A DNA stretch of 64,000 nucleotides from Polynucleobacter sp. MWH-Braz-FAM2G (lineage in GTDB: Bacteria > Pseudomonadota > Gammaproteobacteria > Burkholderiales > Burkholderiaceae), in the NCBI RefSeq assembly GCF_018687635.1, contig NZ_CP061300.1:434001-498000 (forward strand), given 5' to 3'. The position numbers were made by a program, and so were the translations under genes. Numbering within the stretch: the first letter of the stretch is position 1; every line of letters begins with the position of its first letter. The notes beneath the pieces are model-generated. The model saw nothing but the letters and a program-made list of their open reading frames with translations. It made no database searches and was not told the origin of the DNA. This document shows positions 26,211 through 61,439 of this stretch, one piece after another.

Positions 26211-27194
26211 ATGAGTCGTTGGATATTGAATAAGTCCAAGTTTTGGATCGTTGCCCTATTGGGTTTTTCCTCAATTGCTGTAAATGCTCAGACTAAATGG
26301 GATTTGGCGAGCGCATATCCCGTAAGTAATTTTCATACTGAAAATCTTCAACAATTAGCTGCGGATGTTGAAAAAGCTACCGGTGGTAAGTTGAAGATTG
26401 TGGTTCATCCAAATGGTTCATTATTTCCAGCAAATGGTATTAAGCGTGGTGTTCAAACAGGGCAGGCGCAAATGGGGGAAGTGTTAATTTCTGTATTGGC
26501 AAATGAAAACCCTATTTTTGGAGTTGATTCAATTCCTTTTTTAGCAACCAGCTATAAGGATTCTGAAAAGCTGTGGAAGCTTTCCAAAAACGCTACGGAA
26601 GCAGCTTTGCAAAAGCAAGGCTTGAAAGTGGTTTATGCGGTACCTTGGCCACCACAGGGTCTTTATTCCAAGAATCCTATTAATTCAGGCGCCGATATGA
26701 AGGGTTTGAAATGGAGAGCTTATAACCCAGCTACATCCAAAATTGCTGAGTTAGTGGGTGCGCAGCCAGTGACAGTTCAGGTTGCTGATTTAGCTCAGGC
26801 TATGGCTACAGGCACGATTAATTCCATGATGACTTCTGGGGCAACTGGTGTAGATATCAAGGCTTGGGAAAGCTTGAGGTATTACTACGAAGTGGATGCA
26901 TGGCTACCTAAAAATATTTTGATGGTGAATCAGAAAGCATTTGATGCATTGGATAAGCCAACGCAAACAGCGTTACTAAAAGCCTGTGCTGAAGCTGAAA
27001 AGCGTGGGACAAAAGTATCCGAAGAAAAAACCAAGCAATATAACGAGACTTTGGCGAAGAATGGTATGGTTGTTCAAAAACCATCTCCTCAGTTGAAGAA
27101 TGACTTGGATAGAGTTGGGCGCATCATGGTTGCTGAATGGATCCGCAGTGCCGGTGATGAAGGACAAAAAATCATCGAAGAATTTAAAAAATAA
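26211..27194 (+). CDS. dctP: TRAP transporter solute-binding protein (DctP family), probably for 5-oxoproline
   Basis: Periplasmic binding protein of 327 residues with a Sec signal peptide ending near VNA-QT. Family marks: TENLQQLAADVEKATGGKLKI, and the carboxylate-binding Arg in DMKGLKWRAYNPAT. It captures an organic acid and passes it to the DctQM membrane pair that follows. The genes behind it encode 5-oxoprolinase, so pyroglutamate is the most likely ligand; this is inferred from context. AGGAG seven bases before ATG supports the start. Confidence 0.9.
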   Translation: MSRWILNKSKFWIVALLGFSSIAVNAQTKWDLASAYPVSNFHTENLQQLAADVEKATGGKLKIVVHPNGSLFPANGIKRGVQTGQAQMGEVLISVLANENPIFGVDSIPFLATSYKDSEKLWKLSKNATEAALQKQGLKVVYAVPWPPQGLYSKNPINSGADMKGLKWRAYNPATSKIAELVGAQPVTVQVADLAQAMATGTINSMMTSGATGVDIKAWESLRYYYEVDAWLPKNILMVNQKAFDALDKPTQTALLKACAEAEKRGTKVSEEKTKQYNETLAKNGMVVQKPSPQLKNDLDRVGRIMVAEWIRSAGDEGQKIIEEFKK

Positions 27195-27199
27195 GATTT

Positions 27200-27754
27200 A
27201 TGCACGCACCACGAAGTTTATACGGTCGTCTTTTAGATGGCCTGATTCAAGGGGCCGCCGCTTTGGCGGCCTTATGTATTCTCGGTATCTGTATTTTGAT
27301 GGTTTCCATGTCGCTTTCTCGGGAGTTTGGCATCAACCTACGCGGAGCTGATGACCTAATTGCTTGGTTATGCGCGGCTTCAGCCTTCTTAATACTTGGT
27401 CAAACATTTCAACATGGAGGCATTGTCCGCGTTGAAATTTTCTTAAGCACATTGAATGATGTATGGAAAAAGCGCTTGGAGATCGCTGGCCTAGCTGTGA
27501 TGTCTGTTTTTTGTTTTTACGCCTTAGCTGCTTTTTCATTATTTGTGTATCAAAGTTGGGAATTTAATGATGTTTCACAGGGCCAAATTATTGTACCGCT
27601 TTGGATTCCGCAAATTTTTACGGCATTTGGTTGCCTTATCTTTCTCTTAGCGGTGATTGATGAATTAATTCGTGTGATTAAAGGCGGTAAACCTCGTTAT
27701 CAACAAATGGCAGAAGAGCGCTTATCTGCGGGTGATTTTGGGGAGACCTTGTGA
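27200..27754 (+). CDS. dctQ: TRAP transporter small membrane subunit (DctQ)
   Basis: A 184-residue protein with four membrane helices (for example AALAALCILGICILMVSMSL and AFGCLIFLLAVIDELIRV), the DctQ topology. It ends in a charged cytoplasmic tail. It forms the small subunit with DctM and overlaps its gene by GTGA. Confidence 0.92.
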   Translation: MHAPRSLYGRLLDGLIQGAAALAALCILGICILMVSMSLSREFGINLRGADDLIAWLCAASAFLILGQTFQHGGIVRVEIFLSTLNDVWKKRLEIAGLAVMSVFCFYALAAFSLFVYQSWEFNDVSQGQIIVPLWIPQIFTAFGCLIFLLAVIDELIRVIKGGKPRYQQMAEERLSAGDFGETL

Positions 27755-29061
27755 GCATTACGTTAATCGCTCTTATCTTATTGGTCTTGATGTCATTCCT
27801 GCTCTTGATGGGTATTTGGATCCCAGCTGGGGTGGCAATTACCGCGTGGTTTGGCTTAGCTTTCTTCTCCGATAAAGATACGATGATGAATTTAGCCAAT
27901 GTTTGGTGGAATTCCAGCTCATCCTATACCTTAGCTTCTTTGCCATTATTTGTTTGGATGGGCGAGATCTTGTTCAGAACTAAATTATCAGAACAAATGT
28001 TTACCGGTTTGTCTCCATGGCTCAATTGGCTACCTGGACGATTAATGCATGTGAATATTTTGGGTTGCGGCATTTTTGGCTCTGTCTCTGGTTCATCCGC
28101 GGCTACTTGTGCCACTATTGCGAAATCTGCTTTGCCAGAGCTCACAAAGCGTGGCTACGATGAAAAAATCACCCTCGGCTCTTTGTCATGTGCTGGCACC
28201 TTGGGGATATTGATTCCACCTTCAATCACCATGGTGGTGTACGCTGTAGCGGCCGATCAATCCATCATTCGAATCTTCTTGGCGGGATTTATCCCTGGCG
28301 CAATTTTGATGGGCTTATTTTCTGGCTACATTATTGTTTGGGCTTTGTTAAATCCCAATAAAACACCTCCAGCAGAAAAGTATTCTTGGCATCAGCGTCT
28401 TCATTCCATTGGACAATTGATGCCGTGTACAGCATTAATTATTTTTATTGCCTGGTTGATGTTGGCTGGATACTCTACTGCGACAGAGGCAGCTGCTTAT
28501 GGGGTTGTGGGTTCTCTGATATTGGCAGCGGTAGGGCGTAATCTTTCCTGGTCTAACTTTTGGCAGAGTTTGCTTTCAGCTACTCGTTTAACAGCCATGA
28601 TTATGTTTGTCTTAGGAGCAACCTCATTTCTATCGATTGTGATGAGCTATACCGGCATTCCAAGAGGGCTGGCAGAGTGGGTGCAAAGTATGCATCTTTC
28701 GCCATGGGCACTCATTTTTGTATTAACCATTATTTATATTTTGTTGGGTACTGCCCTAGATGGTATTTCGATGATCGCCTTAACTACGGTGACGGTGTTA
28801 CCTATGGTGCAGCAAGCTGGTTTTGATTTAGTGTGGTTTGGAATTTTCATTGTGCTATTGGTAGAGATTGCAGAAGTGACGCCACCCGTTGGATTTAATC
28901 TATTTGTCTTGCAGAGCATGACTGGTAAAGATAGTAACTACATTGCCAAAGTTTCTTTACCCTTCTTTGCCATGATGGTTGTGGCAGTTGCGATGATTAC
29001 CATATGGCCTGAATTGGTCACATGGCTGCCAGATCAATTTTTGCAAAAAGAAATTAAGTAG
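27751..29061 (+). CDS. dctM: TRAP transporter large membrane subunit (DctM)
   Basis: A sodium- or proton-driven permease of 436 residues with about 12 helices. DctM signatures: GCGIFGSVSGSSAATCATIAK, LGILIPPSITMVVYAVAADQSI, FLAGFIPGAILMGLF and VEIAEVTPPVGFNLFVLQ. The start is GTG at 27751, inside the end of dctQ. It is followed 5 bases later by the fused 5-oxoprolinase gene. Confidence 0.95.
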   Translation: MSITLIALILLVLMSFLLLMGIWIPAGVAITAWFGLAFFSDKDTMMNLANVWWNSSSSYTLASLPLFVWMGEILFRTKLSEQMFTGLSPWLNWLPGRLMHVNILGCGIFGSVSGSSAATCATIAKSALPELTKRGYDEKITLGSLSCAGTLGILIPPSITMVVYAVAADQSIIRIFLAGFIPGAILMGLFSGYIIVWALLNPNKTPPAEKYSWHQRLHSIGQLMPCTALIIFIAWLMLAGYSTATEAAAYGVVGSLILAAVGRNLSWSNFWQSLLSATRLTAMIMFVLGATSFLSIVMSYTGIPRGLAEWVQSMHLSPWALIFVLTIIYILLGTALDGISMIALTTVTVLPMVQQAGFDLVWFGIFIVLLVEIAEVTPPVGFNLFVLQSMTGKDSNYIAKVSLPFFAMMVVAVAMITIWPELVTWLPDQFLQKEIK

Positions 29062-29066
29062 CCTCA

Positions 29067-30830
29067 ATGCAGTTGAAAAGATCTAGGAAAGTCGCTGGCA
29101 AGGTTGACATCCTTGATTTGGGTGATGCTGCTTTATTTGTTGATTTCCGGAGCTATCCAGAGCCTTTAAGCAAGATTCACGAATTATCCGATCTCATATT
29201 TTCGTTCTCACCAGAATGGCTTTTAGATTTAATCCCTGGCATTGATAGTCTTTTAGTCGCATTAAAATTTTCAGGACCTAGCTATCAAGATACCCGCCTT
29301 ACTGCTAAAGCAGAAATTGAATCGCTAATTAAAAAGTTATTGAGTGAAAAAAAGCGAGAGCTGAATAATGAGGCGGTACATCGCATTCGGGTCTGTTATG
29401 ACCCAGAGCTGGCTCCGGATTTATTAGCAAGTGCAGAGAAATGTAGGTTGACGGTAAGAGAATTTATTAATCGTCATAAAAACTCGGAAATTCGTGTAGA
29501 TATTTTGGGTTTTATGCCGGGATTTTCATACTGCAGCGGTTTGGATTCTAGCTTAAGGCTGCCCCGCTTAGAATCGCCACGAACTGCTGTGCCTGCAGGG
29601 TCTGTGGCTATCGCAGAATTGCAGACTGCGATTTATCCTCAGGCTACTCCAGGGGGCTGGAATATTATCGGCCGCAGCCCCGATGTGTTGTTCGATCCCC
29701 ATAAGTCTGATCCGAGCTTACTGAGGGCTGGCGATCGTGTTGAGTTTATCGAAATTGATTTAGCCGAATTTAGAAAAATTGAAGCGCAAAACTTGACGAA
29801 AGTGGCGCAAAAGACATCAACAGAAAATGTAAGCAATCATGCTGTTGAGGTCATATCTCCGGGTTTGCAAACCACGATTCAAAGCTTGCCTCGATACGGT
29901 TTTGCACACTTAGCATTGAGCGCTGGCGGTCCAATGGATCTTGAGGGTGCGCGAATGGCAAACACTTTATTGGGGAATTCAGATGATGCAACAGGGCTCG
30001 AAATAACAGGCTCAGGTACAAAATTACTATTTCATGAGGATGTGTGGGTTGCCTGGGTTGGGGCTCAGTGCATAGTTCAAGTGAATGGCAATGTTGTTCC
30101 AGGAAATCGACCTGTGCATATGCGTAAAGGTGAAACTTTGAGTTTTGGAACAATGCAGTTAGGGTGCAGAATATTTCTAGCGTTAAGTGGTGGCATTGAA
30201 AGTGAGTTTATTTTGGGCGGTCAGGGCTCTCATCTCAGTGCTGGAATTGGTGGCGGTGCCTTGCAAAAGGGGGATGCCTTGTATTTGCCTCGTGCACAAG
30301 ATATTTATCAAAAACCATTCTTTAGAAAAATGAGGGATGCAGAAATACGTTTTCCAAAATGGTCAATTGCTTCGCCAGCTTTGCCGGGAAGAAAGCTAGA
30401 AATTATTAAAGTACTACCTAGTATTCATTTGGGGGTATTGAGTGCAGATGAACAAGATGCTTTATGGAAGACCGTGTGGACTGTATCTTCGCAAAGCAAT
30501 CGTATGGGAATGCGTTTAGAAAGTGATTTCAAAATATCAAGTTCGATAACAGGAATCCCTTCTCAGGGAATCTGGTTTGGAACAGTTCAGCTGCCCCCAT
30601 CTGGTCAACCTATTTTGATGATGGCTGAGCACCAAACTACGGGCGGATACCCGAGATTAATGGAAACGCTGAGTTCTGAGCGATCTAAGTTAGGTCAATT
30701 AAGGGCGGGCGACAAAATACAGTTTTTGCCGATTACACTAGATGAGGCTGATCAAATTAATGCATCATTTTTTAGTGAGCAGAGAAAAACATTTGATAAT
30801 GTACGAGCAACTCTTTTGGCGACATCATGA
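29067..30830 (+). CDS. pxpBC: 5-Oxoprolinase subunits B and C fused (PxpB-PxpC)
   Basis: A 587-residue fusion. Residues 1 to about 235 are PxpB (KipI/Ahs1): IRVCYDPELAPDL, FINRHKNSEIRVDILGFMPG, RTAVPAGSVAIAELQTAIYP and GGWNIIGRSP. Residues from about 255 are PxpC (KipA/Ahs2): VISPGLQTTIQSLPRYG, LSAGGPMDLEGARMANTLLG, FLALSGGIESEFILGGQGSH and GIPSQGIWFGTVQLPPSGQP. With PxpA it hydrolyses 5-oxoproline to glutamate using ATP. In E. coli the two are separate genes. A linker rich in Lys, Ser and Thr joins the halves. Spacing and overlap place it in one operon with the TRAP genes and pxpA. Confidence 0.94.
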   Translation: MQLKRSRKVAGKVDILDLGDAALFVDFRSYPEPLSKIHELSDLIFSFSPEWLLDLIPGIDSLLVALKFSGPSYQDTRLTAKAEIESLIKKLLSEKKRELNNEAVHRIRVCYDPELAPDLLASAEKCRLTVREFINRHKNSEIRVDILGFMPGFSYCSGLDSSLRLPRLESPRTAVPAGSVAIAELQTAIYPQATPGGWNIIGRSPDVLFDPHKSDPSLLRAGDRVEFIEIDLAEFRKIEAQNLTKVAQKTSTENVSNHAVEVISPGLQTTIQSLPRYGFAHLALSAGGPMDLEGARMANTLLGNSDDATGLEITGSGTKLLFHEDVWVAWVGAQCIVQVNGNVVPGNRPVHMRKGETLSFGTMQLGCRIFLALSGGIESEFILGGQGSHLSAGIGGGALQKGDALYLPRAQDIYQKPFFRKMRDAEIRFPKWSIASPALPGRKLEIIKVLPSIHLGVLSADEQDALWKTVWTVSSQSNRMGMRLESDFKISSSITGIPSQGIWFGTVQLPPSGQPILMMAEHQTTGGYPRLMETLSSERSKLGQLRAGDKIQFLPITLDEADQINASFFSEQRKTFDNVRATLLATS

Positions 30831-31555
30831 AACAAAAAATTGACCTCAATTGTGATATGGGAGAGGGCTTCGGCGTTTGGGAGATGGGCAATGATCTTGC
30901 CCTATTGGACTGTATTGACTCTACCAATATAGCCTGTGGGTGGCATGCGGGCGATCCCGAGCGGATGAAAAAATTAGTATCTGCTGCTTTACAAAAGCAG
31001 ATACTGATAGGCGCTCATCCCAGTTTGCCAGATCTAGTTGGCTTTGGCAGGAGAGAGATGTCAATTACTCCTAATGATGCATACAACTTTGTTTTGTACC
31101 AGGCAGGAGCGCTACAAGCATTTGTTCATGCTCAGGGTGGCAAGCTTCACCATGTCAAACCACACGGTGCTTTTTATAATCAAGCAGCAAGAGATTTGAA
31201 TCTGGCTCGCGCTATTGCACAAGCCGTCAAGGATCTAGGAAGTGACATTATTTTGTACGGCCTTGCAGGTAGCTGTTTTGTTGAAGCTGCAAACCAGATT
31301 GGAATTCCCCTTTGGCAAGAGGTATTTGCAGACCGGCGTTACACATCAGAAGGGTATTTAGTTCCTCGCACTCAGGCTGGAGCTTTAATTGAGAGTGAAG
31401 ATGAGGCGGCTGCTCAGGCTATACGCATGGCTCAAAAAGGTGAAGTGGTCGCCCTAGATGGAAGTATTGTCAAAGTGAAGGCTGATACCCTATGTATTCA
31501 TGGGGATAGTCCAACTGCTCTTGATTTTGCGAAAAAGATTAAAGCTTCACTGTAA
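30827..31555 (+). CDS. pxpA: 5-Oxoprolinase subunit A (PxpA, LamB/YcsF family)
   Basis: A 242-residue protein with the YcsF signatures IDLNCDMGEGFGVWEMGND, STNIACGWHAGDPERM, IGAHPSLPDLVGFGRREM, HHVKPHGAFYNQAARD and EVFADRRYTSEGYLVPR. It binds and phosphorylates 5-oxoproline in the PxpABC enzyme that returns pyroglutamate, a spontaneous product of glutamine and of protein N-termini, to glutamate. ATGA overlap with pxpBC. Confidence 0.96.
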   Translation: MKQKIDLNCDMGEGFGVWEMGNDLALLDCIDSTNIACGWHAGDPERMKKLVSAALQKQILIGAHPSLPDLVGFGRREMSITPNDAYNFVLYQAGALQAFVHAQGGKLHHVKPHGAFYNQAARDLNLARAIAQAVKDLGSDIILYGLAGSCFVEAANQIGIPLWQEVFADRRYTSEGYLVPRTQAGALIESEDEAAAQAIRMAQKGEVVALDGSIVKVKADTLCIHGDSPTALDFAKKIKASL

Positions 31556-48792: not shown

Positions 48793-49521
48793 TTATTGAT
48801 TGACGTGTAAGCCACATTCTTTGCTATCGCTCTGCAGCCACCACCAGCGACCTGCGCGAATGTCTTCTCCTTTTTTCACCTGTCGAGTACAGGGCTCGCA
48901 ACCAATGCTGGGATAGCCCTTAAGGTGCAGTGGATGAATCGGCACATTTTCTTTTTGAATATAGGCCCAGATATCTGCTTCGGACCAATCAAATAAAGGA
49001 TTAAATTTAGCGATACCTCTGGCATCGTCATGCTCTTCTAAATTGAGTTCAGTGCGGGTGGTAGATTGCTCACGTCTCTGACCTGATATCCAAGCATCAG
49101 CCCCCAACAAGGCTGCGTTAAGCGGCTTGATCTTACGGGCGCCACAGCATGCTTTTTTGGGCTCCTCCCCATCGTAGAAGCCATTCATTCCATATTGATC
49201 AACAAATGCCTGCACATCGCTTTCTTGTGGATAAACTCTTTCAATAGCAATTTGGTATTTGTTTTCGGTGGCTTTGATCATATCAATGGTTTCTTGATGT
49301 AATCGTCCAGTTGCAAGGGTAAAGAGTTGAATCTTTGCGCCTGATTTACAAATGGCATCTGTTAGTGCCATATCTTCAGCGGCAAGGCTGGTTGCAAAAC
49401 GCACATCTGAAAAGCGATTTGAAATATTAGTCAAACGCTCCTGGAGTAGAGCAAATTTCTTATTAAGCTCTGCAGACGTTAGATGACGTGGTGGGATAGA
49501 CCAAAATTCTGGGGAAATCAT
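48793..49521 (-). CDS. cysH: APS/PAPS reductase (CysH), Fe-S type
   Basis: A 242-residue assimilatory reductase that makes sulfite. The PP-loop domain is RFATSLAAEDMALTD. Two Cys pairs, KKACCGARKIKP and GCEPCTRQVKKGEDIR, are the four [4Fe-4S] ligands that mark the APS-reducing form; the catalytic Cys is in the C-terminal KECGLH. With no APS kinase nearby, direct APS reduction is likely. ATGA overlap with the TauE-like gene. Confidence 0.93.
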   Translation of the reverse strand: MISPEFWSIPPRHLTSAELNKKFALLQERLTNISNRFSDVRFATSLAAEDMALTDAICKSGAKIQLFTLATGRLHQETIDMIKATENKYQIAIERVYPQESDVQAFVDQYGMNGFYDGEEPKKACCGARKIKPLNAALLGADAWISGQRREQSTTRTELNLEEHDDARGIAKFNPLFDWSEADIWAYIQKENVPIHPLHLKGYPSIGCEPCTRQVKKGEDIRAGRWWWLQSDSKECGLHVNQ

Positions 49522-50312
49522 GACGTAACTAATTTGATACCAACTAAAAATAATGTTGCCGCAAGAGTGGTTCTTGTTGTTCTTTCAGATAGAGCGCTGG
49601 AGAGCTTGGCTCCTAACCAAATCGCGGGTACAGAGCCCAACAAGAGGCCGAATAGTAAATCGAAGTGCACATTACCTAACCACCAATGACCCGCACCAGC
49701 TAACGCTGTGAGTGGGACGGCATAAGCTATATCAGTGCCTGCAACTTGTGCGGGTTTAAGGTGTGGATAAAGAACCAGAATGAGAGTTGCTCCAATCGCA
49801 CCTGCTCCAATTGAAGAAACTGTTACTAATACGCCGATTACAGCGCCAACAGTAACTGTTGCAATCCTTAATTTATTTCCACTCGGTAAGAAATTAGGAT
49901 TGTTTTGAACCCACTTTAGAATTTTTGCCCGATATAAAAGTGATCCAGCGGTAAGCAATACAGAGATGCCAATTGAAATGCTAATTAAATGATTGAAATT
50001 CTTAGAAACGGGGCCTACATATTTGAGGGTTAATATTGAAATTACTGCAGTAGTAAGACTCCCAACGCATAGGAGGCGAACAATATCCCATCGTATGTTT
50101 CCATGCAATCTATGTGCCGCGGTTCCAAAGCTCTTGGTAATTGCAGCAAAGGCTAAATCTGTTCCTACCGCTGTTGTCGGCGCTACTCCAAATATGATAG
50201 TTAGCAAAGGTGTCATGAGTGAGCCGCCACCGACACCTGTCATACCAACTAGTAAGCCAACAAGTGCTCCAGATACTATGAATTGAGAGGAGTCTAAAAA
50301 AAATTGAATCAT
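49518..50312 (-). CDS. TauE/SafE-family membrane protein, possible sulfite exporter
   Basis: A 264-residue protein with about eight helices. N-terminal GALVGLLVGMTGVGGGSLMT and the repeated GVLVTVSSIGAGAIGAT are the two family repeats; LKPAQVAGTDIAYAVPLTAL is also typical. The family moves sulfite, sulfoacetate or other anions. Located between a small ORF and cysH, a role in sulfur oxyanion transport is very likely; uptake for assimilation cannot be excluded. Confidence 0.88.
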   Translation of the reverse strand: MIQFFLDSSQFIVSGALVGLLVGMTGVGGGSLMTPLLTIIFGVAPTTAVGTDLAFAAITKSFGTAAHRLHGNIRWDIVRLLCVGSLTTAVISILTLKYVGPVSKNFNHLISISIGISVLLTAGSLLYRAKILKWVQNNPNFLPSGNKLRIATVTVGAVIGVLVTVSSIGAGAIGATLILVLYPHLKPAQVAGTDIAYAVPLTALAGAGHWWLGNVHFDLLFGLLLGSVPAIWLGAKLSSALSERTTRTTLAATLFLVGIKLVTS

Positions 50313-50806: not shown

Positions 50807-51799
50807 TTATTGCGTTGGAATATTTCTTGCCTTAATCACTTTTTCCCAATTAGCTGACTCTACTTGTATTTTGGAATCAACGTCTTTGCTCTTCATCATC
50901 ATTGGCGTGAGTCCGTTGGTTTCTAGATTGGCTAATAGAGATGGGGCTTTGAATGATTTTTCAGTCGCTACATAAATTTTGTCGATGATCGATTGTGGTG
51001 TGCCTGCTGGAACTGCGAGCGCATACCAGCCTGTGTTTTCAAATCCAGGAATAGCTGCTTCAGATACGGTGGGAACATTTGGAAGTTGCTTCAATCTTTT
51101 ACTGCTAGTAACAGCTAACGCTTTGACTTGACCCGCTTTTGCAAATCCACCGGTAGCAGGAAAGTTTCCAGCCATAAAATCAATTTGTCCGGCAATGAGA
51201 TCATTTAAAGCGGGGTTCTCTCCCTTATACGGCACATGAGTCGCATGAATACCAGCGGAATAAATAAAATTCTCATTCGCCATGTGAATCTGGCTACCAA
51301 TACCTGCTGAACCAAAATTTAATTCTTTAGTTTTGGCTAGAGCTATTAATTCTGAAAGAGTATTCACGGGGAGTTTAGGGCTTACCGCAATCACCATCGG
51401 TACTGTCGCAATGGTGGTGATGTAAGTTAAATCTTTCACATAGTTGATGGATGACTTTTTGTATATAAATGGGTTGACAGTCATCATGCTTCCAGAGGCT
51501 AACAAAATGGTATAGCCATCAGCGGGAGATTTGGCAACCAGTTCTGCTCCAATATTTCCGCCTGCACCACCGCGATTTTCAACAATCACATTCTGACCAA
51601 GATTCTTGCTTAGTTCCTGTGAAAGTATTCTGCCTAAAATATCTGCACTACCACCCGCAGCAAATGGCACGATCATCTTGATCGGCTTATCAGGCCAAGT
51701 TTGCGCAGCGAGATTGGTAGATCCTAATATGCCTAGTGATATACAAAGCATTACTAGAGATTTGCCGAATTGAATGCGGGCGCTATTAAATATTTGCAT
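50807..51799 (-). CDS. Bug/TctC-family periplasmic solute-binding protein
   Basis: A 330-residue receptor. Signal peptide with cleavage near LAA-QT; motifs PIKMIVPFAAGGSADILG, IVENRGGAGGNIGAELVAKS, ADGYTILLASGSM and ATHVPYKGENPALNDLI. The ligand is unknown. ATG 51799 is chosen because GGAG lies 9 bases upstream; a TTG further upstream is rejected. It follows the CobT-like gene by about 23 bases, possibly in the same transcript. Confidence 0.92.
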   Translation of the reverse strand: MQIFNSARIQFGKSLVMLCISLGILGSTNLAAQTWPDKPIKMIVPFAAGGSADILGRILSQELSKNLGQNVIVENRGGAGGNIGAELVAKSPADGYTILLASGSMMTVNPFIYKKSSINYVKDLTYITTIATVPMVIAVSPKLPVNTLSELIALAKTKELNFGSAGIGSQIHMANENFIYSAGIHATHVPYKGENPALNDLIAGQIDFMAGNFPATGGFAKAGQVKALAVTSSKRLKQLPNVPTVSEAAIPGFENTGWYALAVPAGTPQSIIDKIYVATEKSFKAPSLLANLETNGLTPMMMKSKDVDSKIQVESANWEKVIKARNIPTQ

Positions 51800-51822
51800 A
51801 TTATTTTTCTCCAACTACTTCG

Positions 51823-54712: not shown

Positions 54713-56521
54713 ATGTCTAAGTCCGGCACTAATTTACCTACTGGCCCACAAAAAATGACGCCATCCGAAGCTTTTGTGGAGACGATGGTTGCCAATAAGG
54801 TGAAAGATATATTTGGAATTATGGGATCTGCCTTTATGGATGCGATGGATATTTTTGCTCCAGCAGGTATTCGCTTGATTCCTGTAGTGCATGAACAAGG
54901 TGCTGCTCACATGGCCGATGGTTATGCTCGCGTGAGCGGTAATCACGGTGTGGTAATTGGACAAAATGGCCCTGGTATTAGTAACTGCGTTACAGCAATT
55001 GCAGCAGCTTACTGGGCGCATAGTCCTGTAGTGATCATTACTCCTGAAACTGGCACGATGGGCATGGGCTTGGGTGGATTCCAAGAGGCAAATCAGCTCC
55101 CTATGTTTGAAGAGTTCACAAAGTATCAAGGTCACGTTAACAATCCAAAGCGAATGGCTGAATTTACTGGCCGCTGTTTTGATCGTGCGTTGTCTGAGAT
55201 GGGTCCGACTCAGCTCAATATCCCACGTGATTACTTCTATGGTGAGATCGAAGTAGAAATTCCACAACCAAATCGTCTTGATCGCGGACCTGGCGGTGAA
55301 AAAAGTTTGGATGAAGCAGCAGAGCTCTTAGCCAATGCAAAATTCCCAGTAATTATTTCTGGTGGTGGTGTCGTGATGGGCGATGCGGTTGAGGAGTGCA
55401 AAGCATTTGCAGAGCGCCTGGGTGCACCAGTAGTAAATAGTTACTTACATAATGATTCATTCCCTGCAAGCCACCCATTGTGGTGCGGACCTTTAGGTTA
55501 TCAAGGCTCTAAGGCAGCAATGAAGTTGATTTCTCAGGCGGACGTAGTGGTCGCTTTGGGTTCTCGCTTAGGGCCTTTCGGTACATTGCCACAGCATGGC
55601 ATGGACTACTGGCCTAAAAATGCAAAGATCATTCAGATTGATGCCGATAACAAAATGCTGGGCTTAGTAAAGAAAATTTCAGTCGGTATTTGTGGTGACG
55701 CCAAGGCTGCAGCAGTTGCATTAACTAAGCGTTTAGAAGGCAAGACATTGGCTTGCGATGCCACTAAAGCAGAACGCGCAAAAACGATTGCAGCAGAAAA
55801 AGCAGCTTGGGAAAAAGAACTTGATGAGTGGACTCATGAAAAAGACCCATTTAGCTTGGACATGATTGAAGAGCAGAAGAAGGAAGTGACTCCAACAGGT
55901 GGTCATTACTTGCATCCACGTCAAGTATTGCGCGAGCTCGAAAAAGCAATGCCTGCTGATGTCATGGTGTCTACTGATATTGGCAACATCAACTCAGTTG
56001 CAAATAGCTACCTACGTTTTGAAAAGCCACGTAGCTTCTTCGCTCCAATGAGTTTTGGTAACTGTGGATATGCCTTACCAACCATTATTGGTGCTAAAGC
56101 TGCGGCTCCTAACCGTCCGGCGATTGCTTATGCGGGTGATGGTGCTTGGGCCATGAGTATGGTCGAGATTCTGACTGCAGTTCGTCACGATATTCCTGTT
56201 ACTGCTGTGGTGTTCCATAACCGTCAGTGGGGCGCAGAGAAGAAGAATCAGGTTGACTTCTATAACCGTCGCTTTGTGGCTGGTGAGCTAGAAAGCCCAA
56301 GCTTTGCAGGAATTGCGCAATCTATGGGTGCAGAAGGTATTGTGGTTGACCAGTTGGATCAGGTTGGTCCAGCACTCAAGAAAGCCATTGATATGCAGAT
56401 GAAGGAAGGTAAGACTTGTGTGATCGAGATTATGTGCACTCGAGAACTTGGTGATCCGTTCCGTCGCGATGCCTTATCTAAACCGGTACGTTTCTTGGAT
56501 AAATATAAAGATTACGTATAA
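54713..56521 (+). CDS. xsc: Sulfoacetaldehyde acetyltransferase
   Basis: Thiamine-diphosphate enzyme of 602 residues that converts sulfoacetaldehyde plus phosphate to acetyl phosphate and sulfite, the key C-S bond breaking step in degradation of taurine and related sulfonates. Motifs: the ThDP-activating Glu in IPVVHEQGAAHMADGYAR, and the ThDP/Mg motif GDGAWAMSMVEILTAVRHD ending in the Asn of FHNRQWGAEKKNQVDFYN. The opening TPSEAFVETMVANKVKDIFG and the IMCTRELGDPFRRDAL end match Xsc. No phosphotransacetylase is near. Own promoter and terminator. Confidence 0.94.
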   Translation: MSKSGTNLPTGPQKMTPSEAFVETMVANKVKDIFGIMGSAFMDAMDIFAPAGIRLIPVVHEQGAAHMADGYARVSGNHGVVIGQNGPGISNCVTAIAAAYWAHSPVVIITPETGTMGMGLGGFQEANQLPMFEEFTKYQGHVNNPKRMAEFTGRCFDRALSEMGPTQLNIPRDYFYGEIEVEIPQPNRLDRGPGGEKSLDEAAELLANAKFPVIISGGGVVMGDAVEECKAFAERLGAPVVNSYLHNDSFPASHPLWCGPLGYQGSKAAMKLISQADVVVALGSRLGPFGTLPQHGMDYWPKNAKIIQIDADNKMLGLVKKISVGICGDAKAAAVALTKRLEGKTLACDATKAERAKTIAAEKAAWEKELDEWTHEKDPFSLDMIEEQKKEVTPTGGHYLHPRQVLRELEKAMPADVMVSTDIGNINSVANSYLRFEKPRSFFAPMSFGNCGYALPTIIGAKAAAPNRPAIAYAGDGAWAMSMVEILTAVRHDIPVTAVVFHNRQWGAEKKNQVDFYNRRFVAGELESPSFAGIAQSMGAEGIVVDQLDQVGPALKKAIDMQMKEGKTCVIEIMCTRELGDPFRRDALSKPVRFLDKYKDYV

Positions 56522-56535
56522 GTAAGTGGGGGCAT

Positions 56536-56574
56536 AAAGAAAGAGTCCGGTTAAGCTGGACTCTTTCTTTTTCG
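56536..56574 (+). terminator. Terminator of xsc
   Basis: Stem AAAGAAAGAGTCC (56536-56548) with GGACTCTTTCTTT (56558-56570), 9-base loop, then TT. The Bug and AcnX genes beyond may therefore need their own promoter or read-through. Confidence 0.88.
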
Positions 56575-56613
56575 CTAGACTCATTCCATCCATCCTTTGT
56601 TGAGGTTTGAAAT

Positions 56614-57597
56614 ATGAGCGATCTAGTTAGTAAGATTTTTAAGTATTTGTTGGTTTGCCTTGGCCTCTCTCTGCCATTTGTTAATGCAATTGCAGACACC
56701 TATCCAAGCAAGCCAATACGCTTAATTGTTCCCTTCCCTCCAGGGGGACCTACGGATATTGTTGCAAGACCTTTGGCAGTTCTTTTGGGTGACCGACTTA
56801 AAGAGCAGGTCATTATCGAAAACAAAGGTGGCGCAGGCGGATCCATTGGTGCAGATCTAGTGGCTAAATCAGCTCCCGATGGTTATACCTTGTTCATGGG
56901 TACCGTGGGTACCAATGCGATTAACGGTAGTTTGTACAAACAGTTGTCTTATGACATGACGAGGGATTTCACGCCAATTGCATTAGTTGCTACAGCACCT
57001 GTAGTGATTGTGGTTAATTCCAATGATCGCATTAAGACGCTTTCCGAATTAATCACAGAAGCGCGAGCAAAGCCTGACACGATTGCGTACGGAACAGCTG
57101 GCAATGGAACACCGGGACATTTAACTGCAGCCTTATTTGAGTCAACTGCTCAAGTGAAGTTCAAGCACATTCCATACAAAGGAAGTGCGCCTGCAGTAAC
57201 AGATTTGATTGGTGGTCAGATTCCTTTGGTATTTGATCCGATTCAATCAGTTCTTCCACACATTACCTCTGGGAAGCTACGGGCCTTAGCCGTCACTAGT
57301 AAAACGCGTTCACCGTTATTGCCTAATGTACCCACAGTTGCCGAACTTGGTTATCCCCAGTTTGAGTCTACAGCCTGGTGGGCATTATTTGGTCCAGCAA
57401 AATTGCCCGAGCCCATTACTAAAAAGTTGAGACTCGATACAGAAAAAGTAGCTCAATCTGCTGCCTTTAAAGAGCGTTTGGGAAATTTGGGAGTACAGCC
57501 TAATGTGGATTTCAAAGAAAGTTTGGCTAATTTTCAAACTAGTGAAATTGCGAAATGGGCTAGGGTAGTTCGCGACTCTGGTGCCACTGTAGATTAA
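56614..57597 (+). CDS. Bug/TctC-family periplasmic solute-binding protein
   Basis: A 327-residue receptor with signal peptide (cleavage near AIA-DT) and PIRLIVPFPPGGPTDIVARP, QVIIENKGGAGGSIGADLVA, KSAPDGYTLFMGTVGTNAIN and FKHIPYKGSAPAVTDLIGGQ. The ligand is unknown; it lies between xsc and the aconitase X genes, only 18 bases before the latter, so its cargo probably feeds that enzyme. Confidence 0.93.
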   Translation: MSDLVSKIFKYLLVCLGLSLPFVNAIADTYPSKPIRLIVPFPPGGPTDIVARPLAVLLGDRLKEQVIIENKGGAGGSIGADLVAKSAPDGYTLFMGTVGTNAINGSLYKQLSYDMTRDFTPIALVATAPVVIVVNSNDRIKTLSELITEARAKPDTIAYGTAGNGTPGHLTAALFESTAQVKFKHIPYKGSAPAVTDLIGGQIPLVFDPIQSVLPHITSGKLRALAVTSKTRSPLLPNVPTVAELGYPQFESTAWWALFGPAKLPEPITKKLRLDTEKVAQSAAFKERLGNLGVQPNVDFKESLANFQTSEIAKWARVVRDSGATVD

Positions 57598-57615
57598 TAG
57601 TAGAGAAGAGAAAAA

Positions 57616-58848
57616 ATGAAGCTTAATGCAGAAGAAAAGGCAATGCTAGCTGGGGAGTTTGGTCCAGTCAGACAAACCGCTATCCAGCATCAAATCAAGG
57701 TAGGTGAATTTTTTGGTGCCGAAGATTTAGTTCCCGTATCTCAGGCTCATATCATGGCTGACACCGAGAGTCTTGGCGAGGCTGGGGTTGAATGGTTGGA
57801 AGGATTAGCAAAAAATTCACCGCAAGATCGTATGGTTCGCATACCAACTATTACCGATCCACGCGGTACGGATTTCACTAAGGCAAAACAGTTAGGTCAA
57901 ACTGAAAAAATGCTCGAGCTTGAAAGACGAGCAATCGATGCGTTTGTGAAGATGGGTGTATCGATGACAGATACCTGCATTAACTATCAAACTATCATGG
58001 CTCCTGTATACGGCGAGCATTTAGCATTCGGTGATACGGGGGTGGTGATTTATTCGAATAGTGTTTGTGGCGCTCGCTCGAATTTCGAAGGTGGACCTTC
58101 GGCCTTAGCGGCAGGGTTAACTGGCAGAACCCCACGCTATGGATATCACTTGGATGAGCACCGAAAACCAACTCATCGTTTTAGGACATCGTGGACCCCC
58201 CAGACTCTGAATGAGTGGGGCGCATTGGGTGGATTGATCGGAAAAAAATCAGGAAATTATTGGTCGGTTCCAGTTCTAGATGGCATTGAGGGTCATCCTG
58301 GGTCTGATGCGATGAAGCATTTCGGGGCGGCGATGGCGAGCTTTGGCTCCACTGCTTTATTTCATGTGCTTGGCATTACACCTGAAGCGCTTCATGCCAG
58401 AGATTTGGAGTATTTGCATTTACCTGAAATCCTTATTAGCAAAGAAGAGGTTATGGGATTGCAAAACTCCTATCGAATTGCCGAAGAAATTGATGTGGTG
58501 GTATTTTCTGCTCCGCAATTAAGTCTTATGGAGATGAAAAGTATTGCGGAGTTATGTAATGGTAAGAAATTTATTAAGCCTCTATTGGCTATGACAAGTC
58601 CACAAGTGAAGCCAGATTCAGATCGAATGGGTTATACCGAAATGATTGAAAGTGCTGGAGGAACGGTGTTTTCTGGAATGTGCTTTTATCAGTCTTATGC
58701 CAGAGAAATAGCCGAGACCAATGGATGGAAAGTATTGGCTACCAATAGCGCAAAGATTGTGAATATTTTAGGTGGTTATGGTTATACGCCAATGCTGGCT
58801 TCTATGGAAGACTGCGTTCAAGCTGCGGTAACGGGGAGACTAAAGTGA
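57616..58848 (+). CDS. Aconitase X large (catalytic) subunit
   Basis: A 410-residue Fe-S dehydratase of the AcnX family (DUF521). Three candidate cluster Cys are seen: DTCINYQTIMAPVYGEHLAF, SNSVCGARSNFEGGPSAL and FSGMCFYQSYA. Also typical: RIPTITDPRGTDF and GLTGRTPRYGYHLDEHRKP. Known members dehydrate cis-3-hydroxy-L-proline or, in archaea, mevalonate 5-phosphate; this one has no proline genes near, so its substrate is open. GTGA overlap with the small subunit gene. Confidence 0.92.
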   Translation: MKLNAEEKAMLAGEFGPVRQTAIQHQIKVGEFFGAEDLVPVSQAHIMADTESLGEAGVEWLEGLAKNSPQDRMVRIPTITDPRGTDFTKAKQLGQTEKMLELERRAIDAFVKMGVSMTDTCINYQTIMAPVYGEHLAFGDTGVVIYSNSVCGARSNFEGGPSALAAGLTGRTPRYGYHLDEHRKPTHRFRTSWTPQTLNEWGALGGLIGKKSGNYWSVPVLDGIEGHPGSDAMKHFGAAMASFGSTALFHVLGITPEALHARDLEYLHLPEILISKEEVMGLQNSYRIAEEIDVVVFSAPQLSLMEMKSIAELCNGKKFIKPLLAMTSPQVKPDSDRMGYTEMIESAGGTVFSGMCFYQSYAREIAETNGWKVLATNSAKIVNILGGYGYTPMLASMEDCVQAAVTGRLK

Positions 58849-59252
58849 GTACAAAAATTTTTAAGGCAAAACATGCTCAAGGCGAGAGTATCGAGGGCGA
58901 ATGTCTCAGCGCATCAGATGGGTTTTCAGCTCGCTACGATTTGGATCGTCTGAAGGGTGTGTTCTCACGTCCAGCCCATAAGTTATTCGGGCAATCTTAT
59001 AAGGATAAGATTTTAGTGTTAGATGCCGCTAAAGGTGGTGTTGCTAGCGCCTGGATGCTGTACGAAATGAAATCCAGAAATCTTTGCCCATCCGCCATTA
59101 TTTTTAATGCGGTCAACCCAATCTTGGCTCAAGGTGCAGCTCATGCTGGTATACCGATGTTGAGTGGATTTGACTGTGATATTACTCAGGCGATTGCTAC
59201 TGGTTCTCGTTTGCGGATTGACACTAAAAATCAAACGGTGGAAGTGCTTTAG
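58845..59252 (+). CDS. Aconitase X small (swivel) subunit
   Basis: A 135-residue DUF126 protein. Family marks: FSRPAHKLFGQSYKDKILVL and CPSAIIFNAVNPILAQGAAH, then AGIPMLSGF. The loop that in characterised AcnX enzymes has a Gly-Ser-rich sequence (GxGSxxGS-like) reads AAKGGVASAW here, with a single Ser. This suggests a subgroup with a different substrate. The start is GTG inside the end of the large subunit gene. Confidence 0.88.
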   Translation: MSTKIFKAKHAQGESIEGECLSASDGFSARYDLDRLKGVFSRPAHKLFGQSYKDKILVLDAAKGGVASAWMLYEMKSRNLCPSAIIFNAVNPILAQGAAHAGIPMLSGFDCDITQAIATGSRLRIDTKNQTVEVL

Positions 59253-59259
59253 CTATCAC

Positions 59260-59829
59260 TTAAAAAATTGAGTGATACTCAGATAAGCTCGGGCGAATGC
59301 GTCCGGGCTTATTTTTTTGTACGGTACCAATCGTTATAAAACAAATCGGCTCTTCATCTTTTGTAAATCTAAATAGCGTTCGGATGCGATCGCTCTGAAG
59401 CGCTCTACCACTGGATAGTCCTGAGCCAAATCCATAAGCATATGCGCTCAGGAGGATATTTTGGATGGCGCATCCAAGTGAAATCAACTTTTCTTGTTTG
59501 CTGATATCGTCATTTGGATCTTGGTAGTTCGCTACGGCCAATAAAAGCAAGGGACCACGAAAAGCCTTCTCATAAGCTTCTTGCTGTTGTGCTGCTGTCG
59601 CATTCGGGTCTCGATCTAATAATGACAGTTTGAATACTTCTCCTAAGTTTGCACGACTACTGTTTTGTATCTCAATAAAGCGCCATGGAAGCATTCTGCC
59701 GTGATCGGGCGCTGCATTGGCAGCCAAGAGTATGGTTTCCTTTTGCGCTTCGGTAGGCCCTGGATCCCCCAGTCTTTTGGGTGAAATATGAGTTCTACCG
59801 TGAATCAGTTGTTCGGCAAATTGATCCAT
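59260..59829 (-). CDS. Nitroreductase-family flavoprotein
   Basis: A 189-residue FMN protein. Motifs: ILLAANAAPDHGRMLPWRFI for FMN phosphate contacts, SLGCAIQNILLSAYAYGFGS and ICFITIGTVQKNKPGR. The closest known group is the YdjA-like single-domain type. It is the fourth gene of the soe run, 15 bases after soeC. The substrate is unknown; a role in maturation or quinone reduction for the complex is possible but not shown. Confidence 0.87.
   Translation of the reverse strand: MDQFAEQLIHGRTHISPKRLGDPGPTEAQKETILLAANAAPDHGRMLPWRFIEIQNSSRANLGEVFKLSLLDRDPNATAAQQQEAYEKAFRGPLLLLAVANYQDPNDDISKQEKLISLGCAIQNILLSAYAYGFGSGLSSGRALQSDRIRTLFRFTKDEEPICFITIGTVQKNKPGRIRPSLSEYHSIF
59284..59318 (+). terminator. 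Terminator of the AcnX unit, inside the nitroreductase gene
   Basis: Ten-bp stem TAAGCTCGGG (59284-59293) with TCCGGGCTTA (59302-59311, two G-T pairs), then T7. It lies within the last codons of the convergent gene. A second inverted repeat TATCACT/AGTGATA (59254-59277) lies just before it. Confidence 0.85.
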
Positions 59830-59844
59830 GGTTATGCGATGGAT

Positions 59845-60780
59845 TTAAGAGACTCTTTGGTAATACAAATTTTGTGGATGATTTGCCTCAGCAAAGAACA
59901 TCCATCTTTCGGCTAACAACCCCAAGTAATTAATAAATAAGGCTAAGCCAATCAGCAATACATTTGGAGAGGTAATCGTATATGCCATTAGTACCATTGG
60001 AATGACGTAAGCGCAAAGCAAAATAATCTTGCGGATGTTAGCGATGACTCGATCAGTTTGATGATGAAAGAACTCGCGTGTATTAAAACTTCCACCCATT
60101 AAACCCATTGAGGTTTGACGAATATTTGAACCTTTAATACCAGTTGCTGAAGAGAGATTGGACTTTGGCTTCAAGTGACGGTTACGTCGCCACATCCAAA
60201 GTTTGAGATTAAAGGACAGAAATAACAGAATGAATGCAACGATAGATAAGGGGGCGTCAATCATTTGGAAGGCATCATCGCCCCATAAGGCGATGAGTAG
60301 CTCAAGCAATAGCCAGCCTGAAGTCATACCCAAGAGAATAAAGTTCGACAGTGTAGAGGGGTGTGACCATTCCTGAATAAAACGAATGCACTGATAAATT
60401 TTTGCAGTACAAATCCAGAGAGCGAATGTGGTGACAAGAAGTGCTAGCCACAGCCATTGCGGAACTTGGCTAGTAGCCGCATAAAAATAAGTGACTAATG
60501 TGGCACCCATGAGCGCTGGTAATGCGATGACTTCCCTAGAGAGCCAAGATGTTCTCCACATCATGGCAGCCCGCCAGGCTCTCTCTGGATGACCTAAGTG
60601 AAAGAACGATGCCACTAAACCTAAGGCTAATAGTGCAAAAGCTACTGGTAGAGCGAGATGGGTAAGAAAAGCATTTGGGGTTGCTTGGCTATAAAGATTG
60701 GATAGGGCTATAAAAAATAGTAGACCTTGTGCCATACCAGCTAAAGTAGTGAAGAAAATAATTGAAAATTGTGGACGCAT
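59845..60780 (-). CDS. soeC: Membrane anchor subunit, DmsC/SoeC-like
   Basis: A 311-residue protein with eight to nine helices. N-terminal FSIIFFTTLAGMAQGLLFFI and FHLGHPERAWRAAMMWRTSW are DmsC/NrfD-type anchor signatures with a quinone-site His. FAEANHPQNLYYQ ends it. It anchors the Mo and Fe-S subunits and exchanges electrons with quinone. TAATG overlap with soeB. Confidence 0.88.
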   Translation of the reverse strand: MRPQFSIIFFTTLAGMAQGLLFFIALSNLYSQATPNAFLTHLALPVAFALLALGLVASFFHLGHPERAWRAAMMWRTSWLSREVIALPALMGATLVTYFYAATSQVPQWLWLALLVTTFALWICTAKIYQCIRFIQEWSHPSTLSNFILLGMTSGWLLLELLIALWGDDAFQMIDAPLSIVAFILLFLSFNLKLWMWRRNRHLKPKSNLSSATGIKGSNIRQTSMGLMGGSFNTREFFHHQTDRVIANIRKIILLCAYVIPMVLMAYTITSPNVLLIGLALFINYLGLLAERWMFFAEANHPQNLYYQRVS

Positions 60781-61439
60781 TATTTGTCATTCCTTGCAGC
60801 ATCAATAGTTTCCATGATGGAGCGCGGTAAATAGTGATTGGCAGGTTGAGTTTCCCATTCGGGCATGAGTGCATAGCCTGAGCGCTCCTCGATTGCTTTG
60901 CTAGCTGCCGATTCAGGATCATGAACATCGCCAAAAATACGTGCGCTTGTAGGGCAGGCGAGAACACATGCTGGTTTTTTCTCGGCTTCGGGCAAAGTCT
61001 TGCTGTAGATGCGATCTACGCAAAGCGTGCATTTGGTCATGACTTGACGTTCTTGGTCTAGCTCGCGCGCACCATAAGGACAAGCCCAAGAACAATAACT
61101 GCAACCGATACATTTGTCATAATCGACTAAAACAATACCATCTTCTTTGCGCTTATAGCTTGCGCCTGTTGGGCAAACGGGAACACACGGAGGTTCTTCG
61201 CAATGTAAGCATGATTTTGGAAAGTGTACGGTTTGGGTATTCGGAAATGTCCCAGCTTCATAAGTTTGGACGCGATTAAAAAAAGTCCCACTTGGATTTG
61301 CGCCATAAGCATTGAGATCTGTAAGAGGGCCAGCTGATCCAGAGGTATTCCACTCTTTGCAGGATGTTACACATGCATGACATCCAACACAGACATTTAA
61401 ATCAATTACGAGAGCGAGTTGTTTATTTTTTTTGCTCAC
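60780..61439 (-). CDS. soeB: Four-cluster ferredoxin subunit, SoeB-like
   Basis: A 219-residue electron-transfer subunit with 16 Cys in four groups: CVGCHACVTSCKEWN, CLHCEEPPCVPVCPTGA, CIGCSYCSWACPYGAR and CTLCVDRI with CVLACPTSARIFGD. The FFNRVQTYEAG insertion is typical of SoeB. It lacks a signal peptide, so the complex faces the cytoplasm. The start is GTG at 61439, overlapping the soeA stop. Confidence 0.9.
   Translation of the reverse strand: MSKKNKQLALVIDLNVCVGCHACVTSCKEWNTSGSAGPLTDLNAYGANPSGTFFNRVQTYEAGTFPNTQTVHFPKSCLHCEEPPCVPVCPTGASYKRKEDGIVLVDYDKCIGCSYCSWACPYGARELDQERQVMTKCTLCVDRIYSKTLPEAEKKPACVLACPTSARIFGDVHDPESAASKAIEERSGYALMPEWETQPANHYLPRSIMETIDAARNDK

Follow-up and report, generated by a model that had tools for sequence, protein, structure and literature searches.

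Sulfoacetaldehyde acetyltransferase (Xsc) is a main desulfonation step for the carbon of taurine, isethionate and sulfoacetate in aerobic bacteria. In a 64,000-base stretch of the genome of Polynucleobacter sp. MWH-Braz-FAM2G (G000:C1:434001-498000, from a single contig of 2,172,647 bases; this whole stretch is hereafter the window), the gene for Xsc is followed by genes for a TctC/Bug receptor and for the two subunits of an aconitase X (AcnX), and is preceded by a pair of genes resembling cobS and cobT of cobaltochelatase. An earlier note on this DNA proposed that xsc, Bug and AcnX form a candidate new organosulfur or hydroxy-acid route, and our profile matches agree with it on the positions and families of these four plus-strand genes (Table 1). 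We consider it fairly probable, however, that the locus consists of three parts: a sulfoacetate dissimilation island, a separate Bug-AcnX cassette, and a CobS/CobT-like pair that is tied to one clade of Xsc.

Xsc lies in a probable sulfoacetate dissimilation island

The Xsc of the window exceeds the curated equivalog cut-off of TIGR03457. The earlier note had seen neither pta nor any taurine, isethionate or sulfoacetate genes around it, which proved to be an artefact of the window edge: the first gene of the sulfonate island beyond the right edge, encoding a phosphotransacetylase-family protein, starts 336 bases outside the window. In the stretch that continues past this edge (L080, quoted in window numbering), it is accompanied by genes for an IclR regulator, a Bug receptor, SauS (acylating sulfoacetaldehyde dehydrogenase) and an AMP-binding CoA ligase. 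SauS is over its curated cut-off as well. The phosphotransacetylase-family protein scores 311 bits with NF006045 (cut-off 282) and stays under the cut-offs of NF008852 and TIGR00651, and the 25 best of the 107 listed families include no SauT model for the CoA ligase next to sauS. Two features inside the window had also gone unmentioned, namely a TauE-family gene (49518-50312) and a SoeABC-like operon (59845-64324), in which all three subunits of a dimethyl sulfoxide (DMSO) reductase family enzyme are present (molybdopterin, Fe-S and DmsC anchor). No SoeA model is among the families listed, and the best solved-structure match of the SoeA-like subunit is thiosulfate reductase, the relatives found being only distant ones of the DMSO reductase family. 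Judged from its position and family, the operon may encode a sulfite:quinone oxidoreductase.

Of 121 genomes of the genus, 26 have both xsc and sauS, one has only xsc, one has only sauS and 93 have neither. In these counts xsc was taken as present in 25 genomes over the cut-off and in two with partial matches (G092 and G050), other matches below the cut-off being scored as absent, and SauS as present in 22 genomes over the cut-off and in five with partial matches (G092, G100, G036, G066 and G050). Since the SauS region lies next door and the two genes co-occur in this manner, the local xsc has a known feed, sulfoacetate, and the island appears to be one of sulfoacetate dissimilation, a known pathway cut by the window edge. 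The part of PMC12625764 consulted describes sauST clusters in which a tripartite transporter replaces SauU, and the Bug gene beside sauS fits this arrangement.

In the proposed pathway, the Bug receptor, as part of a tripartite transporter, would bind sulfoacetate, and the CoA ligase (the SauT candidate) together with SauS would make sulfoacetaldehyde. Xsc would cleave this into acetyl phosphate and sulfite, of which the former would be turned into acetyl-CoA by the phosphotransacetylase-family enzyme and the latter oxidised by the SoeABC-like complex. Xsc and SauS are assigned by curated family cut-offs, and the putative SauT, Pta, SoeABC and transport functions by position and family. The GMC dehydrogenase encoded further to the right may have an IseJ-like role, with isethionate as a possible second feed of xsc. 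The island resembles the sauST cluster of Cupriavidus necator H16 and its tripartite hybrid in having SauS over the cut-off, an adjoining CoA ligase, a Bug/TctC receptor and an IclR regulator. It differs from the H16 cluster in that the receptor is Bug, as in the hybrid, and not SauU, that xsc and SoeABC-like genes lie in the same island, and that the CobS/CobT-like pair and the AcnX cassette are added. The H16 cluster includes an IclR-type gene, sauR.

A CobS/CobT-like pair follows one clade of Xsc

The cobS-like gene is divergent from xsc, with 142 bases between the coding regions. Walker A and B motifs in one protein and a metal-ion-dependent adhesion site (MIDAS) in its partner, encoded together, make the two a MoxR-type AAA+/VWA pair. 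The best solved-structure matches are CobS (9ujv) and CobT of cobaltochelatase, CbbQ and NorQ being weaker sequence matches of the CobS-like protein; neither protein reaches its curated cobaltochelatase cut-off.

Within the genus, xsc is present in all 24 genomes that carry the CobT-like gene, and on average 7.9 of 8 independent pairs changed the same way (median p 0.008). Kinship was taken from an IlvB tree that covers 80 of the 121 genomes, with long branches for G024 and G014; no IlvB match was listed for G021, G066 or G092, and 38 others were left out. The genus genomes with xsc and no CobT-like gene are G067 and G100, whose Xsc is divergent (66-67%), and G050, whose match is partial. Among 299 genomes of the family, 116 carry a CobT-like gene above 200 bits (146 have some match, those below this threshold not being counted), 119 carry xsc and 114 carry both. 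The two genes share one contig in 113 of these 114, and lie within 5 kb in 96 and within 25 kb in 112. The CobT-like genomes without xsc are G183 and G349, in which the gene lies about 2 kb from a contig start, and those with xsc and no CobT-like gene are G136, G164, G184 and G344, with a divergent Xsc (71-73% identical), and G256 (83%). The CobS-like gene stands beside cobT in all 14 pair-bearing family loci that were read (L242-L250, L252-L256). At L250 and L256, two xsc copies flank the pair.

The same linkage was found at greater distance. CobT-like matches above 300 bits occur in six of 244 genomes of the phylum; all six carry xsc, and they give the six highest Xsc scores. The genes are 1.2 to 2.1 kb apart in five of them and 28 kb apart in G122, and the other 15 phylum genomes with xsc have no CobT match above 200 bits. 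Some CobT match at 1e-20 is present in 96 of the 244 genomes, but outside the six all are below 200 bits and mostly cover the VWA part alone, with L239 and L240 matching over most of the length in tblastn at 29%. In the plasmid collection, seven records match the CobT-like protein over 80% or more of its length, 1.3 to 4 kb from Xsc, and all seven are among the ten records whose Xsc is 80-90% identical. They include Photobacterium and Caballeronia; on the Caballeronia plasmid, genes close to xsc-pta are annotated 'AAA family ATPase' and 'cobalt chelatase'. In an Xsc tree of 71 rows (near-identical loci thinned, matches shorter than 480 residues dropped, cobST labels given per genome or locus), the pair accompanies 49 rows of a 50-row clade and is absent from all 21 rows outside it, with two changes in all. 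An open reading frame of L132 that looser clustering pulled into the Xsc cluster (27.6% over a 354-residue piece) was not counted as Xsc.

In one literature library, no paper was found that joins sulfoacetaldehyde acetyltransferase to cobaltochelatase or von Willebrand, or Polynucleobacter to xsc. Among the matches listed, no paper treats xsc together with MoxR, CobS or CobT, and no title or abstract start in the literature on Polynucleobacter and sulfonates or on AcnX since 2018 names the pairing.

Possible roles of the pair

The simplest reading is a motor acting on Xsc, because the pair follows one Xsc clade and SoeABC-like, pta and GMC genes all occur without it. AAA+/VWA pairs with this architecture are ATP-driven motors that open or refit a partner, the chelatases being one example. 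CbbQ/CbbO and NorQ/NorD act as ATP-driven activase or maturation pairs on Rubisco and nitric oxide reductase, respectively. By analogy, the CobS/CobT-like pair may free or mature Xsc. We tentatively suggest, rating it at somewhat below an even chance, that one Xsc clade has in this pair its own dedicated activase or maturation motor, driven by ATP and recruited from cobaltochelatase, which has moved together with xsc through Burkholderiaceae, further families of the phylum and Vibrionaceae. The likeness to CbbQ/CbbO and NorQ/NorD lies in an AAA+ ATPase and a VWA partner encoded near one client enzyme, whereas the window pair is nearer in sequence to CobS/CobT and its client and action are putative. 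For Xsc, a thiamine-diphosphate enzyme, no such helper was found in the literature searched.

Another client in the same island is unlikely. MoxR/VWA pairs often serve metal enzymes, SoeABC is one, and soe genes lie near the pair in the window, L244 and L256; pta is likewise a near-constant neighbour. Were the pair to act on SoeABC, phosphotransacetylase or the GMC dehydrogenase, however, it would have to be explained why SoeABC-like genes occur without it in G067 and G256 and why pta or GMC genes stand at pair-less Xsc loci (L257-L261), whereas the pair itself follows one Xsc clade.

It is quite unlikely that the pair is the motor of a vitamin B12 cobaltochelatase standing beside xsc for historical reasons. 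The structure matches point that way, and the pair has the CobS and CobT domains of cobaltochelatase CobNST with Walker A/B and MIDAS intact. On the other hand, both proteins fall below the NCBIfam cut-offs, and CobN (PF02514) has no match in G000 in a search that was positive in 5 of 14 control genomes. The linkage to xsc also recurs in the family of the window, in Photobacterium and in two more of the families sampled across the phylum, and the 15 remaining phylum genomes with xsc lack a match above 200 bits.

The Bug and AcnX genes probably form a separate cassette

Both AcnX subunits are over the cut-offs of their families (PF04412 and PF01989), and the best solved-structure match of the Bug receptor in front of them is Bug27 (2qpq). 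Between xsc and this Bug gene lies a hairpin with a U-rich end, a probable intrinsic terminator; the 70-base stretch 56521-56590 folds at -29.4 kcal/mol (z -5.2) and none of 200 shuffles folds as well, while a simple consensus terminator scan did not list it. The caveat in the earlier note that an xsc terminator could leave the two as mere neighbours is the better reading. The terminator-like hairpin after the AcnX unit is weak evidence alone, the consensus scan having given 4 sites against 6.1 expected in shuffles.

In G059, G117, G096, G065, G009, G044 and G055, the block of cobT-cobS, xsc and nitroreductase-soe is unbroken, the nitroreductase gene following xsc without an intervening AcnX, and G066 shows the same AcnX-free block up to a contig end beside xsc. 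In G079, G012 and G039 the insertion also holds a LysR gene that faces Bug (one LysR member was scanned), and the LysR-Bug-AcnX arrangement is found without xsc beside it at loci of G009, G044, G053, G062, G063, G082 and G100. The complete genome G062 has no xsc over the cut-off and carries two such cassettes (L053 and L054) about 14 kb apart. Each of these two lies near a duplicated set of other genes. In public genomes, Xsc is present in the flank of 11 of 80 AcnX loci and in none of the examined flanks, some of them short, of the other 69. These 11 loci group with that of the window in a single clade of the AcnX tree, 16 rows in size (SH-aLRT, an approximate likelihood-ratio test of branch support, 100), and a single insertion of the cassette beside xsc with later losses is likely but not proved. 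A Bug gene lies at most two genes upstream or three downstream of AcnX in 38 of 79 recognised loci, and a gene of the LysR cluster in 18.

The Bug-AcnX genes would thus be a separate cassette, which came to lie between xsc and soe by insertion in this lineage. Its role would be to take up and dehydrate a hydroxy acid, the product needing no further dedicated enzyme; as the cassette encodes no further enzyme, this product is probably a common metabolite.

Co-occurrence of acnX and xsc

Co-occurrence with xsc, by which the earlier note had proposed to judge its idea, extends beyond this strain: 19 of the 24 genus genomes with acnX carry xsc (Fisher 9e-12, ignoring kinship). Of these 19, 7 have the two genes side by side, 3 (G009, G044 and G049) have them apart on a single contig, and 9 have them on different contigs. 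G021, G053 and G088, which have acnX and no xsc, are incomplete assemblies. On the IlvB tree, on average 6.7 of 12 independent pairs changed the same way and none the opposite way (median p 0.016). When the linked rows were dropped (G000, G006, G012, G037, G039 and G079, together with G088, where the nitroreductase gene adjoins acnX and no xsc is over the cut-off), this fell to 2.7 of 7, again with none opposite (median p 0.25). Much of the signal therefore stems from physical linkage, and the remaining events are too few to judge. At the family level, xsc is present in 51 of 86 acnX genomes and in 68 of 213 without acnX (odds ratio 3.1, ignoring kinship). Co-occurrence does not establish a joint acnX-xsc pathway.

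That AcnX dehydrates a hydroxylated sulfonate feeding Xsc, with Bug as the sulfonate receptor, is very improbable. The independent pairs on the full tree and the family-level ratio speak for it, as do the 12 of the 19 genus genomes in which the genes were not seen adjacent and the AcnX-side Bug being nearest to the sauS-side Bug (43%, against 40 and 34%, in a comparison with three other Bugs). These points are outweighed by the loss of significance once the linked rows are dropped, the hairpin between xsc and Bug, the two cassettes of the xsc-free G062 and the 69 AcnX loci without Xsc in their examined flanks. Moreover, isethionate, sulfolactate and dihydroxypropanesulfonate do not yield sulfoacetaldehyde when dehydrated. 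A joint sulfonate role of AcnX was accordingly not upheld by synteny, co-occurrence or independent pairs.

Landmark residues of both known activities are missing in AcnX

Residue positions were mapped from alignments to the solved AtAcnX and TkAcnX and counted in 82 large and 81 small subunits. Cys121, Cys356 and Lys380, which align with two of the cluster cysteines and with the active-site lysine, are kept in 82/82. The third cluster cysteine of either known type is lost, with Tyr358 in 82/82 and Ala299 in 80/82 (Ser in 2/82); the latter position corresponds to Cys283 of TkAcnX, the mark of phosphomevalonate dehydratase (AcnX IIb). The general-base serine of the small subunit (Ser70 in AtAcnX, Ser62 in TkAcnX) is replaced by Gly65 in 81/81, and in the large subunit Tyr534 is replaced by Ile384 and Glu292 by Asp140, each in 82/82.

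According to the part of PMC8184944 consulted, AcnX of types IIc-IIf is without a landmark residue of either activity, and the part of PMC10040528 consulted gives the functions of these bacterial subclasses as unknown. The window AcnX fits this uncharacterised group by its two subunits, its family membership and the missing landmarks of both known activities, a likeness drawn from published description without reference sequences and to IIc-IIf as a whole, with no exact subclass assigned. Identity as a cis-3-hydroxy-L-proline dehydratase is barely credible and was rejected on its residues: the family is the same, two cluster cysteines and the lysine are kept, and type IIa enzymes too seem to have only two cluster cysteines in the part of PMC8184944 consulted, but the substrate sites described there as fully conserved in type IIa are altered at Gly65, Ile384 and Asp140, NF051439 gives 182 bits against a cut-off of 700, and no hydroxyproline gene is found among the scanned neighbours.

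The route proposed in the earlier note is partly supported. Its organosulfur half is not supported, given the sulfoacetate feed next door, the hairpins, the unlinked copies and the p value of 0.25, while the idea of an undescribed hydroxy-acid route still stands, in line with the missing landmark residues.

Other AcnX neighbourhoods were also considered for a substrate guess; TRAP, MatC/CitMHS carrier, SulP transporter, EamA and TauD-family dioxygenase genes are found there, with no single partner. At a few gammaproteobacterial loci (L150:9666-10673, L153:2871-3902), AcnX is preceded by an aldo/keto reductase and followed by a TauD-family dioxygenase (one member per cluster scanned). These two enzymes may point to what AcnX acts on there.

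Observations that weigh against the three-part reading

Several observations weigh against the three-part reading. The SauT, Pta and SoeABC candidates have no matching equivalog model over the cut-off here, and linkage is the single line of evidence that points to an action of the CobS/CobT-like pair on Xsc. That linkage is looser in 17 of the 114 family genomes, where the genes are 13-28 kb apart, and in one they are on different contigs. The Xsc of G256 falls in the pair-bearing clade, yet this genome has no CobT-like match above 200 bits. The remaining three of the ten plasmid records with Xsc at 80-90% identity are from Rhodococcus, and their Xsc is 88% identical to that of the window; in the two that were opened, pta is present and no CobST match was found in the 12 and 8 kb flanks, and the plasmid search, which did not cover chromosomes, gave no CobT match on any Rhodococcus plasmid. 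With regard to the cassette, the 19/24 co-occurrence of acnX with xsc in the genus is not predicted for a purely accidental neighbour, and parsimony on the AcnX tree gives four changes in adjacency to xsc when two loci cut by a contig end are taken as non-adjacent.

On the Rhodococcus plasmids L357 (11962-14881) and L358, the 88% identical Xsc is found with a phosphotransacetylase gene. Transfer between phyla is the likely origin of this Xsc.

Features of the locus and further neighbours

Table 1. Features of the xsc locus in window numbering; the window ends at 64000 and positions beyond it were read from L080.
Feature	Position	Strand	Remarks
TauE/SafE-family sulfite exporter candidate	49518..50312	-	PF01925 140 bits
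Bug receptor	50807..51814	-	PF03401; relatives flank a sulfolactate-type module in other genus members
CobT-like VWA protein, 582 aa	51823..53571	-	TIGR01651 220.3 bits (cut-off 759.05); PF11775, PF06213; MIDAS DCSGS at residue 372
CobS-like AAA+ ATPase, 325 aa	53593..54570	-	TIGR01650 437.7 bits (cut-off 558.55); Walker A GMHGTGKS, Walker B LILDE
xsc, sulfoacetaldehyde acetyltransferase, 602 aa	54713..56521	+	TIGR03457 1071 bits (cut-off 676)
Hairpin between xsc and Bug, probable intrinsic terminator	56536..56570	+	16 pairs, U-rich end; folding
Bug/TctC receptor of the AcnX cassette, 327 aa	56614..57597	+	PF03401 230 bits
AcnX large (catalytic) subunit, 410 aa	57616..58848	+	PF04412 385 bits; matches TkAcnX 7cnr, AtAcnX 7cnp
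AcnX small (swivel) subunit, 135 aa	58845..59252	+	PF01989 86 bits; 7cnr_B; 4-base overlap with large-subunit gene
Nitroreductase-family gene at end of soe block	59260..59829	-	PF00881; same place in many genus loci
Terminator-like hairpin after AcnX unit	59281..59314	+	15-pair stem, then T run
SoeC-like DmsC-family membrane anchor	59845..60780	-	PF04976
SoeB-like 4Fe-4S subunit	60780..61439	-	PF13247
SoeA-like molybdopterin subunit, 962 aa	61436..64324	-	PF00384, PF01568; full length in L080
PTA_PTB phosphotransacetylase-family gene	64336-65244		past edge; PF01515 138 bits
IclR regulator	65284-66084		past edge
Bug receptor beside sauS	66269-67261		past edge
SauS	67304-68713		past edge; NF047625 738 bits (cut-off 600)
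AMP-binding CoA ligase, SauT candidate	68721-70256		past edge; directly after sauS
GMC dehydrogenase	71082-72692		past edge

To the left of the island, on the minus strand between 46500 and 50312, the sulfate assimilation genes cysN, cysD and cysH are followed by the TauE/SafE-family gene. At many xsc loci of the genus (for example L047:14143-18344), genes for GntR, a SuyB-like protein (GD_AH_C), Ldh_2 and a 2-hydroxyacid dehydrogenase lie left of cobT, by family a sulfolactate-type module. In G000 no SuyB-like match was found, and the Bug gene at 50807 directly follows cobT. Further away, at 26211-31555, TRAP transporter genes precede CT_A_B/CT_C_D and LamB_YcsF genes, which we take to be a 5-oxoprolinase-type set.

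Implications

The AcnX result narrows an open question to a bacterial group, often with Bug nearby, that lacks the landmarks of both known activities. If one branch of Xsc does depend on a chelatase-derived motor, assays of Xsc carried out without that motor may miss activity, and the annotation of CobS and CobT in such genomes would wrongly suggest vitamin B12 synthesis.

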